A stretch of DNA of 64,000 nucleotides, from positions 1 through 64,000 of the forward strand of contig CACFIL010000005.1 in the NCBI GenBank assembly GCA_902566315.1, written 5' to 3'. The translations under genes were made by a program, and so were the position numbers. Positions 32,580-36,761 of the stretch are shown here, piece by piece; position 1 is the first letter of the stretch; every line of letters begins with the position of its first letter. The notes under the pieces were generated by a model. That model saw only the letters and a list, made by a program, of their open reading frames with translations. It made no database searches and was not told the DNA's origin. The DNA comes from an uncultured Pelagibacteraceae bacterium (GTDB lineage: Bacteria; Pseudomonadota; Alphaproteobacteria; Pelagibacterales; Pelagibacteraceae).

Positions 32580-33854
32580 CTAAAACTGTTCTGACTCAGT
32601 TGAGCCTTCCATTGCAGTAGTTGAGCTTTTGCCTGAGCTTATTGTATTTGAAACTGCATCAAAATAAGATGTACCTACTTCTCTTTGATGTTTAACACTT
32701 GTGTATCCATCTTTTTCTCTTGCAAATTCATGTTGTTGAATTTTTGAGTAAGCGGTCATACCCTCTGATTTATATTTTTCTGCTAATTCAAATATTGCGA
32801 TATTTTGAGTGTGGAAACCTGCTAATGTAATAAATTGAAATTTATATCCCATTTCTCCAATCTTTCTTTGAAATGATCCAATTTCCTCATCAGATAAATG
32901 TTTCTTCCAATTAAATGATGGCGAACAGTTATAAGCTAACATTTTACCAGGAAATTTTTCATGTATAGCATCAGCAAATTTCTTTGCTTCTTCTAAATTT
33001 GGAGTAGCAGTTTCACACCAAATTAAATCTGCGTATGGTGCATAAGCAAGACCTCTAGAAATTGCCTGCTCTATTCCGTCTTTAACATAAAAGAAACCTT
33101 CGGGAGATCTTTCGCCGGTTAAAAATGGTTTGTCATTTTCATCAAAATCATTTGTGATTAACTTTGCAGCATTTGCATCTGTTCTTGCTAAAATTATTAA
33201 TGGTACATCTGCAATATCAGCGGCAAGTCTTGCAGCCTTTAAATTTCTAACCATTGTTCCAGTTGGAACTAAAACTTTTCCACCCATATGACCACATTTT
33301 TTCTCACTAGCTAGTTGGTCTTCAAAATGAACTCCTGCAGCACCTGCTCTAATAAATTTTTTGGTTAATTCAAATACGTTTAGTGGTCCACCAAATCCTG
33401 CTTCACCATCAGCTATAATTGGCAACATGTAATCAGTTCTTTTACTTTTATCCATGTCACCATCTATCATTTCCATATGTTGAATTTGATCTGCTCTAAC
33501 TAGGGAATTATTCATTGTCTCAACTAATTTTGGTGCACTATCATAAGGATATAAAGATTGGTCAGGATACATTTCTCCTGCGCTGTTAGCATCAGCTGCA
33601 ACTTGCCAACCACTTAAATAAATTGCCTTTAAACCTGCCTTTGCGTGTTGTACTGCATGATTTCCTGAAAGTGACCCTAGAGTGTTTACATAAGCTTCAG
33701 TATTAAGCAGTTTCCAAAGCTTTTGGGACTGCATTTTACACATAGAATACTCGATTTTGATAGAACCTCTTAATCTTTCAACTTCTTCAGGAGTATAATC
33801 TCTTTTAATACCTGCAAATCTTTGTAAATCGTATGATATATTCTCAGCTGACAC
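32580..33854 (-). CDS. aceA: Isocitrate lyase
   Basis: [14 protein letters not shown] catalytic motif; [30 protein letters not shown] start with GAGAGGGG upstream. Confidence 0.98.
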
Positions 33855-33876: not shown

Positions 33877-33900
33877 AATGACTAGAAATGACTAATGACT
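33877..33900. repeat. Three direct copies of AATGACT between the 53-codon ORF and aceA
   Basis: AATGACT at 33877-33883, 33887-33893 and 33894-33900. Confidence 0.6.
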
Positions 33901-34060
33901 ATTTTGAGCTGTATTCTTCAGTAAATTCATTCATTCCGCTAGAGCCCCAATCGCAATGATCGTCTCTAATGTAAATACCCTTTGACTTGTGCTCAGAATG
34001 CTCTTCTTTATTAGTAATTTGGTAGTTATTTTCGATATTGTTTATTTTGTTTTTTTCCAT
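33899..34060 (-). CDS. Short ORF upstream of aceA (53 aa), unknown
   Basis: Reverse translation MEKNKINNIENNYQITNKEEHSEHKSKGIYIRDDHCDWGSSGMNEFTEEYSSK*; absent from the supplied track, which appears to stop at about 60 aa. Confidence 0.5.
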   Translation of the reverse strand: MEKNKINNIENNYQITNKEEHSEHKSKGIYIRDDHCDWGSSGMNEFTEEYSSK

Positions 34061-34073
34061 GTAAACTTTATAA

Positions 34074-34162
34074 TTTACAATATTTACAAAATCTACAATT
34101 AAATTAATTTTGCTTGTAAAATCGAATAATTTTGTGTAAATTTTAATTTACAAAATTTACAA
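34074..34162. promoter_or_regulatory. Putative operator array for the aceA regulator: phased TTTACAA repeats
   Basis: TTTACAA at 34074 and 34083, TCTACAA at 34092 (9-bp steps); inverted TTGTAAA at 34114; TTTACAA at 34147 and 34156 (9-bp step). Confidence 0.65.
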
Positions 34163-34170
34163 ATAGTAAA

Positions 34171-35595
34171 ATGAGTCAAATTGATACAAAAATTGGTCCA
34201 AAAATCAAAGCATTTAGAAGGCAACTAGGAATTCAAGCTAACAAACTAGCAGAAGAAATGTCTATTTCACCAAGCTATTTAAATTTAATAGAGAGTGGAA
34301 AAAGAAAAATTGATGGAGACTTACTTTTAAGGGTTTGTGATAAACTAAAAATAGAACTTTCCGATCTTACAAGCAAGACAGACATAAATCTTGAGAATAA
34401 TATTTCTGAATTGTTGGGTGATGAACTTTTTGAGGATCTTGATATTCTTGGACCAGAAGTAAAGGATTTAGTTAATACAAATCCAAAAATTGCTAAAGCT
34501 TTAATTAAACTGGGTGACAACTTTAAACAAAAAGATCATGAAATTTTTAACAAATTAGAAAATATTTCAGGTAAAATTATTGATGGGAGAAAAAACGCAT
34601 TTCCAGGTGAAGTAATTTCAGATTTTTTACAAGAAAATAAAAATTTTTTTCCAAAATTAGAAGAATTTGCTAATGAAATTTTTGAAAAAGTAAAACAAAA
34701 CAATAGAACAAGATATATTGCCTTATGTCAGTTTTTAAAAGATGAATATGGTATAACTGTAAAAGATGTAATACCTAAAGAAGGAAAACCATTTTCAAAA
34801 ATATATAAAGTGAAAGATAAAGAATTATTATTATCTGATTATCTCTCACTTGAAACTAAAAAACTTTTTGCAGCAGCACAAATTTCACAAGAAGGTGCCT
34901 CAAAAGAAATTGATGAATACCTTACTACATTTAATTTTCCAACTGAAGAATCTAAAAAATTAACAAGGGTTGCACTTTTGAATTATTGTGGTGCTGCAAT
35001 ATTAATGCCTTACTCTCTTTTTCATAAAGAATGCAAAGAATTAAAATATGATTTGGAACTTTTACAAAATACATTTGCTACTTCTTTCGAACAAGTAGCT
35101 CATAGAGTAACATGTTTACAAGATCCAAAACTTCCTGGAATACCTTTTCATTTTTTAAGAGTAGATGTTGCTGGAAATATTTCAAAAAGATTTTCATTAT
35201 CAGGTATAGAGATACCAAGATACGGTGGAGCATGTCCAAGATGGAATGTTTACTCAGCTTTTTCAAGGCCAGGTGTTATTCAAGCAGCAGTCAGCAAAAT
35301 GACCAACGGGGAAAGATATGTCTGTATAGCTAAAACAGTTGAAAAGGGTGTAGGAAGATATGGACAAAAAAAAAGTATGCTGTCTATAGGTCTCGGTTGT
35401 GAAGCAAAATATGCTAAAGAATTTGTATACACTGAAAATTTAGATCTCAGTGACAAAAAATCTGAATTACCTATTGGAGTATCATGTAGAACGTGTGACA
35501 GGCTTGATTGTTCACAGAGAGCTTTCCCTCCTCTTCATAAGAAATTTGATGTAGACATAAATTCTAGAGGAGTCTCTGTTTATGTAAATGAGTAA
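34171..35595 (+). CDS. XRE-family / short-chain fatty acyl-type (ScfR/RamB-like) transcriptional regulator
   Basis: N-terminal HTH (KAFRRQLGIQANKLAEEMSISPSYLNLIESGKRKIDGDLL); DUF2083-like C-terminus with SCRTCDRLDCSQRAFPP; divergent from aceA. Confidence 0.9.
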   Translation: MSQIDTKIGPKIKAFRRQLGIQANKLAEEMSISPSYLNLIESGKRKIDGDLLLRVCDKLKIELSDLTSKTDINLENNISELLGDELFEDLDILGPEVKDLVNTNPKIAKALIKLGDNFKQKDHEIFNKLENISGKIIDGRKNAFPGEVISDFLQENKNFFPKLEEFANEIFEKVKQNNRTRYIALCQFLKDEYGITVKDVIPKEGKPFSKIYKVKDKELLLSDYLSLETKKLFAAAQISQEGASKEIDEYLTTFNFPTEESKKLTRVALLNYCGAAILMPYSLFHKECKELKYDLELLQNTFATSFEQVAHRVTCLQDPKLPGIPFHFLRVDVAGNISKRFSLSGIEIPRYGGACPRWNVYSAFSRPGVIQAAVSKMTNGERYVCIAKTVEKGVGRYGQKKSMLSIGLGCEAKYAKEFVYTENLDLSDKKSELPIGVSCRTCDRLDCSQRAFPPLHKKFDVDINSRGVSVYVNE

Positions 35596-35603
35596 ATTAA
35601 AAA

Positions 35604-36761
35604 TTACTGCTGTTTCTGTCTTTTTTTTGAAATTAGCTGAGTTAGAGAATCTACCATTAAGTCTGAGGCTTTAAATATTTCATTTGCTTTAAACTCATGA
35701 GACATGTTTTTGTCTTCATTTGTCTTATCTTCTATTATTATTCCTTTATCAGGTGAATTATCCTTTATATATATTAAAATTAACCATTCTTCGTCTGATG
35801 ACTCGTCCCATTTTATAAATATTTCTCCAGTCTCAAATCTTTTATCTATGCATCTGAATATAGACATATGTCTTGTAATATATCTTTTGTTTAATTGAAA
35901 AACTAAACTGTTAGCACTTCTATAAAAACTTTCTAAAGCAAACTCAATTTTTTGTCTTGTTAAGTTATATTCCCTTTCTTTTTGAAGTAGTGCTGATCTA
36001 TCATCTTCTTCATCAGTTTTTACTCCAAGAGCTTCGACTCTTTCCCTAATTTTTTGATCTCTAATTAATCTATATTTATTTTTTAAATTTTCTATTCTCT
36101 GTTGTAATTCTGCATAGTCGCTTCTTTTTTCTTTTAGAGAAATCTTCTCTAGTTTTTCAAGTTCTTTTACTTCTCTTATCCTAAATCTTTCGATCTGCTT
36201 TTGTATTCTTAACTCTTGTAAAAACTTCTTTTGTCTTTCTGCTTGCTCTTTTCTTAGTAGTGCTTGTTCTTTTCTTAAAAATAATTTTAAATCTTTAGCT
36301 CTTAATTTTTCTATTCTCTCTTCATCTTTTAATTCTCGTTGCTTAAGTTTAAACTGCTTTTGTTCTTGCAATATTTTCTTTTTTTTAATTTTTTCTTTTT
36401 CTATATTTCTTTTCTCAATTTCTATTAATTTTAGTCTTCTTTTTTCATCCTTTCTCTGAATTTTGAATTCATTTATTTTCCCATCTATATATTGAAAAAA
36501 CTTCGATATACCTCGGTCAATTGCAAAAATGTCAAATTTGACTTTAACCTTTAATTTTGATTTTAACTTTTCTTCTACTCTGACTGATTTTGTAATTAAA
36601 TTATTCTTTATTTTTTTTTTAAGAATGAACTTTTTTTTTTGAACTTTCTTTTTTTTTGAATTAATGATCTTTTTCTTCTTTTTTATTTTTTTTCTAGCTT
36701 TTAAAGAAATTTTTCTTTTTTTTTTGATATTTTTTAATTTTTTTTTTTTATTTTTTTTCAT
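35604..36761 (-). CDS. Lys-rich coiled-coil protein, unknown function
   Basis: 385 aa: about 60-residue Lys-dominated N-terminus, long charged helical middle, distinct C-terminal domain (RSANSLVFQLNKRYITRHMSIFRCIDKRFETGEIFIKW). Confidence 0.8.
   Translation of the reverse strand: MKKNKKKKLKNIKKKRKISLKARKKIKKKKKIINSKKKKVQKKKFILKKKIKNNLITKSVRVEEKLKSKLKVKVKFDIFAIDRGISKFFQYIDGKINEFKIQRKDEKRRLKLIEIEKRNIEKEKIKKKKILQEQKQFKLKQRELKDEERIEKLRAKDLKLFLRKEQALLRKEQAERQKKFLQELRIQKQIERFRIREVKELEKLEKISLKEKRSDYAELQQRIENLKNKYRLIRDQKIRERVEALGVKTDEEDDRSALLQKEREYNLTRQKIEFALESFYRSANSLVFQLNKRYITRHMSIFRCIDKRFETGEIFIKWDESSDEEWLILIYIKDNSPDKGIIIEDKTNEDKNMSHEFKANEIFKASDLMVDSLTQLISKKRQKQQ

Follow-up and report, generated by a model that had tools for sequence, protein, structure and literature searches.

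What reads the short repeated words that lie between the isocitrate lyase gene, aceA, and a divergently transcribed regulator gene in an uncultured Pelagibacteraceae bacterium, and with what effect on the two genes? A sequence-only reading of this DNA had proposed an autoregulatory switch of the glyoxylate shunt, in which a ScfR/RamB-like regulator acts through tandem operators; this proposal holds in the main, with the taxon and the gene order set right. The present analysis covers the whole stretch of 64,000 nucleotides, referred to here as the window. Judging from comparative sequence evidence, the array is very probably an operator of the divergent ScfR-family regulator, which would control both its own gene and the transcription unit that contains aceA.

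The window belongs to SAR11 (Pelagibacteraceae, Alphaproteobacteria), a very abundant group of bacteria in the ocean, and not to an actinobacterium. Loci nearly identical to this one stem from single-cell genomes of uncultured Pelagibacteraceae. The aceA gene (32580-33854, minus strand, GTG start) matches the isocitrate lyase model PRK15063 with 726 bits, above the cut-off. It is preceded by an unannotated, conserved open reading frame for a 53-residue microprotein with the core GIYIRDDHCDWGSSGMNEF (33899-34060, minus strand), the first gene of the aceA unit, so that the true intergenic gap is only 110 bp long (34061-34170). The array had been placed between aceA and the regulator; it does adjoin the regulator gene, but on the other side the microprotein gene intervenes. 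This microprotein is found in most relatives, where alignments show an invariant D..DWG..G core, and its substitutions with respect to the window copy are distributed 14:20:546 over first, second and third codon positions; the family is under strong purifying selection. Of 198 genomes of the order, 101 carry it, each in a single copy, and these include most of the sampled genomes of the genus. No match to it was found in Pfam or NCBIfam, nor a paper in a literature search by SAR11_1241, a guessed locus tag. More short acidic reading frames with a DDxCF-like motif lie near aceA in divergent family members, at loci L189 (2165-2389), L184 (1366-1524) and L186 (1352-1471), and are possibly a second or a replaced microprotein.

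The regulator (34171-35595, plus strand) combines an XRE helix-turn-helix (HTH) domain, an IrrE-like domain (Peptidase_M78) and a ScfRs C-terminal domain with four Fe-S cysteines. The three-domain ScfR layout is complete, since PF01381, PF06114 and PF09856 (ScfRs, E=7e-60) all score above their cut-offs, and the proposed family membership is thereby borne out. The best full-length NCBIfam match is RamB (NF038139), at 358 bits and under the curated cut-off of 700, so under that rule the protein is a RamB-like relative and not a RamB equivalog. It also aligns with PrpR of Mycobacterium tuberculosis (6cz6, E=6e-62), including all four Fe-S ligands, which in PrpR are Cys363 and a C-X2-C-X4-C motif (PMC6765138). 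The motifs GGACPRW and CRTCDRLDC of the regulator align to GGSCPLW and CKICNRTSC of PrpR, and the ligand set is intact. The divergent arrangement of the aceA unit and the regulator gene, which allows autoregulation, is supported as well. Downstream, a 385-residue lysine-rich reading frame (35604-36761, minus strand), conserved in at least one relative (L065), converges on the regulator gene.

The repeat words were all recovered at the positions first reported for them: TTTACAA at 34074, 34083, 34147 and 34156, TCTACAA at 34092, TTGTAAA at 34114, and TTTGTGTAAA at 34131, the last containing TGTAAA at 34135. They can be arranged into two pairs, a degenerate third box and two single boxes. Pair A, TTTACAAT-A-TTTACAAA (34074-34090, plus strand), lies on the side of the aceA unit and is kept in relatives; pair B, TTTACAAA-A-TTTACAAA (34147-34163, plus strand), lies on the regulator side and ends 7 bp short of the regulator start codon. 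Each pair spans 17 bp with a step of 9 bp, and the box TTTACAAA is itself a near-palindrome. A degenerate third box, A3 (TCTACAA, 34092-34098, plus strand), continues the 9-bp phase of pair A. Close to the midpoint lies box C, cTTGTAAA (34113-34120, minus strand), in the opposite orientation and present in nearly all relatives, and before pair B lies box B0, TGTGTAAA (34133-34140, minus strand), the conserved part of which is TGTAAA at 34135-34140.

The repeats fill the whole of the gap. It is AT-rich and short, features that could produce such words by chance or low complexity. The numbers argue strongly for another origin: the gap holds five exact TTTACAA or TTGTAAA words where 0.32 are expected, and five or more appeared in none of 20,000 dinucleotide-preserving shuffles. 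In 9 of these shuffles one 9-bp-phased pair arose, but never two, and elsewhere in the 64-kb window a 110-mer contains two words at most. Conservation refutes a chance origin, whose probability is negligible. In 20 non-redundant SAR11 gaps, all below 85% similarity, conservation reaches 97.7% in the boxes against 66.4% in the remaining gap, and none of 109 circular shifts of the box mask matched the observed box conservation. Box A3 is less constant, at 0.76 compared with 0.98 for the main boxes. Measured from first box to first box, pairs A and B lie 73 bp apart in 91 of 101 distinct operators and 74 bp apart in the other 10, and this fixed spacing occurs in loci whose microprotein-aceA gap ranges from 26 to 82 bp. 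Repeats and spacing alike are therefore retained in orthologous regions, the comparison on which the sequence-only reading had staked its proposal. A distance of 73-74 bp is close to seven helical turns of 10.5 bp and places both pairs on one face of the DNA.

Where exact boxes are paired at close step, both nearly always point the same way (161 '>>' pairs at 9 bp and a few '<<' pairs at 9-10 bp, with two convergent pairs at 8 bp). In a sister clade pair B reads TGTAAA-TGTAAA, so that the pair is flipped yet still direct. The array is rearranged in L184 and reduced to a single box in L186, two loci with divergent SAR11-family regulators that count against the operator reading. These two proteins (1635-3044 in L184, 1568-2965 in L186) are the most divergent of the SAR11 family, at about 55% identity, and their recognition-helix region reads PAFLSLIE, compared with PSYLNLIE otherwise. 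Among the 175 loci in which a regulator could be recognised, 14 encode one with two tandem HTH domains, 88-89 residues apart, and the double-HTH proteins sit on the same kind of box array. A duplicated N-terminal XRE HTH was seen in L062, L064, L065, L066, L068, L069, L081, L150, L155 and L168; in several double-HTH regulators the second B box touches the start codon or runs into it.

Alternatively, the boxes could be read by a different DNA-binding protein, say Fur, Irr or some other global or iron regulator, the ScfR neighbour being incidental. SAR11 aceA is iron-responsive and both Fur and Irr are encoded, but the distribution of the boxes follows the ScfR gene, which makes this alternative improbable. 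The ScfRs domain was found in 39 of 98 family genomes, all 39 of which have a high-scoring aceA match, a few of them split at contig ends. Five genomes appeared to carry aceA alone. Three of these (L173, L175 and L176), with no ScfR gene adjacent to aceA, have no exact box; as the genomes are incomplete, the absence refers to the region beside aceA. L175 retains the microprotein and a decayed array, and L173 and L176 are without the microprotein. The fourth, G008, was rejected as a case of aceA without ScfR, its contig being cut and both ScfR and boxes being present; the fifth, G081, is uninformative, as its contig ends after 73 bp.

Across the class, the words TTTGCAA, TTGCAAA, TTTACAA and TTGTAAA were counted upstream of the regulator in 30 ScfR loci, where 45 were found, distributed over 24 of the 30, against 2.3 expected. 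Box words are thus enriched about 20-fold upstream of ScfR genes in other Alphaproteobacteria, a factor that is approximate because the shuffles preserve no more than base composition and overlapping words of one box are merged in the count. Pairs in 9-bp phase were scored in L243 (TTTGCAAA twice, with aceA adjoining) and in L253, and in L248 another, TTGTAAAacTTGTAAA, was visible by eye. Within 61 genomes of the genus, exact 9-bp pairs occur mainly at the aceA-regulator locus, which also speaks against another protein as the reader of the boxes.

Further promoters of the genus with the same pattern were considered and taken as coincidence, since the other matches inspected lie mostly inside unrelated reading frames. 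In L159, L163, L165, L167 and L171, TTTACAA-NN-TTTACAA occurs near position 1501 inside a GFA-type (CHCKxCK) reading frame and is regarded as a coding coincidence, and a match in the bacterium's own genome sits at one end of contig 13, next to murE-like sequence. A wider regulon that includes malate synthase was likewise rejected: upstream of this gene, in 16 loci or genomes, there are three isolated single words and no pairs. Two of eight malate synthase loci scanned carry a glycine riboswitch, an element known on glcB of some SAR11 (PMC5069720).

With respect to the promoters, the element TATAAA at 34067-34072 (minus strand) is the predicted -10 element of the aceA unit. Relative to the microprotein ATG its position is -12 to -7, the same as in most relatives, and this suggests a leaderless start. 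A generic promoter scan gave sigma-70-like promoters no more often than in shuffled sequence and left the TATAAA element unscored. If the start is leaderless, pair A would span -14 to -30 with respect to the aceA unit, and for the regulator gene pair B would span -24 to -8. Another conceivable role of the repeats is that of an RNA element, a riboswitch or attenuator in the leader transcript. The inverted repeats in the gap and the glycine riboswitch on glcB in some SAR11 give this idea a basis, but the predicted starts leave almost no leader, the conserved parts are the boxes, mostly direct repeats, and the region has no Rfam match above the gathering score and no terminator-like site; an RNA element is very improbable.

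If the array is an operator of the ScfR-family regulator, the HTH domains of the latter would bind the TTTACAAA-type boxes, chiefly the two 17-bp pairs on the divergent core promoters, and the two single boxes between pairs A and B would assist binding. Because the pairs lie on the same face of the DNA and seven turns apart, one tetramer, or a cooperating pair of dimers, could occupy both promoters simultaneously, looping the DNA between them. Since the array overlaps the predicted core promoters, protein bound there would obstruct both of them, which suggests repression; together with negative autoregulation this is the simplest reading. The generic promoter scan speaks neither for nor against it. 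Control would thus most likely be repressive, relieved by a change of state in the part of the protein predicted to sense Fe-S and CoA-thioesters. Repression is not assured, because the class 2 RamB of Paracoccus denitrificans is an activator.

The same operator might accordingly serve activation of aceA from boxes C and A3, with pair B providing negative autoregulation, a serious possibility although somewhat doubtful. Boxes C and A3 lie roughly 32-60 bp ahead of the predicted start, with box C, kept in nearly all relatives, near -55. In Paracoccus, the two boxes through which the protein activates its glyoxylate operon have an 18-bp spacer and are located 82 bp in front of the malate synthase gene (PMC10370305). 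However, protein bound to pair A at -14 to -30 would block the polymerase, and RamB proteins elsewhere repress the genes concerned, icl1 in M. tuberculosis and aceA and aceB in Corynebacterium glutamicum (PMC6765138, PMC4448153).

For a repressor, relief under iron limitation would fit expression data from SAR11, although these are weak and correlative. In Ca. P. ubique under iron limitation, aceA (SAR11_1240) rose 1.58-fold (P=0.091) and with it SAR11_1242, a 'transcription regulator' two locus tags away, which rose 1.60-fold (P=0.054) (PMC2864753); from its position, SAR11_1242 is presumably the ortholog of the regulator. SAR11 isocitrate lyase is also more highly expressed in iron-poor water (PMC6618146). 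In its most elaborate form, the model would have one ScfR tetramer bridging both tandem-box operators and reading iron, through the Fe-S cluster, as well as acyl-CoA, with the microprotein as an extra part and with HTH-duplicated regulators in some lineages; in this full form it is speculative and rather unlikely. The gene set of Ca. P. ubique is among the smallest of free-living heterotrophs. A dedicated Fe-S and acyl-CoA sensor on aceA would, if true, mean that the two enzymes of the glyoxylate shunt are controlled separately, and would supply a mechanism, open to experiment, by which SAR11 isocitrate lyase expression could rise, as reported, when iron is limiting. For further study, the conserved microprotein and the double-HTH regulators offer definite new material, and both are less expected than the operator.

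The operator itself has close counterparts among ScfR-family sites. In M. tuberculosis, PrpR protects 25 bp in a DNase footprint that contains TTTGCAAA-N-TTTGCgAA (PMC3420887), that is, two 8-bp palindromes, TTTGCAAA and TTTGCgAA, with one base between them and hence a 9-bp step (PMC3420887, PMC6765138). The SAR11 site shares with it the adjacent 8-bp boxes, the length of 17 bp, the 9-bp step, the divergent regulator and target, and the ScfR-family protein, and TTTACAAA differs from the PrpR boxes by one G-to-A change per box. The description of the SAR11 operators as tandem rather than palindromic does not set them apart: the footprinted PrpR site has the same step and, since the box is a near-palindrome, the 17 bp of a site read equally as a direct or an inverted repeat. 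PrpR has one pair, in the prpD-prpR promoter, whereas SAR11 has two pairs and single boxes; the main target of PrpR is the methylcitrate operon, its 17-bp site being found also upstream of icl1. The class 2 RamB of P. denitrificans, with CoA-ester ligands and an Fe-S cluster, resembles the SAR11 regulator as an alphaproteobacterial ScfR protein divergent from a glyoxylate-cycle operon (PMC10370305). In a comparison of spacing, the SAR11 step of 9 bp differs from its 18-bp spacer; its boxes lie upstream of the malate synthase gene, while malate synthase is encoded elsewhere in SAR11 and is without box pairs. The RamB sites of C. glutamicum, AA/GAACTTTGCAAA, share the TTTGCAAA core, and that protein also regulates aceA and aceB and represses its own gene (PMC4448153), but it is a global regulator that acts on 13-bp asymmetric sites over many promoters. 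Paired TTTGCAAA-like 8-mers near the promoter of the regulator or its target, as expected of a ScfR operator, are present in SAR11 as TTTACAAA-N-TTTACAAA, and the array, as a set of putative binding sites, is a low-GC version of those already known for the ScfR family.
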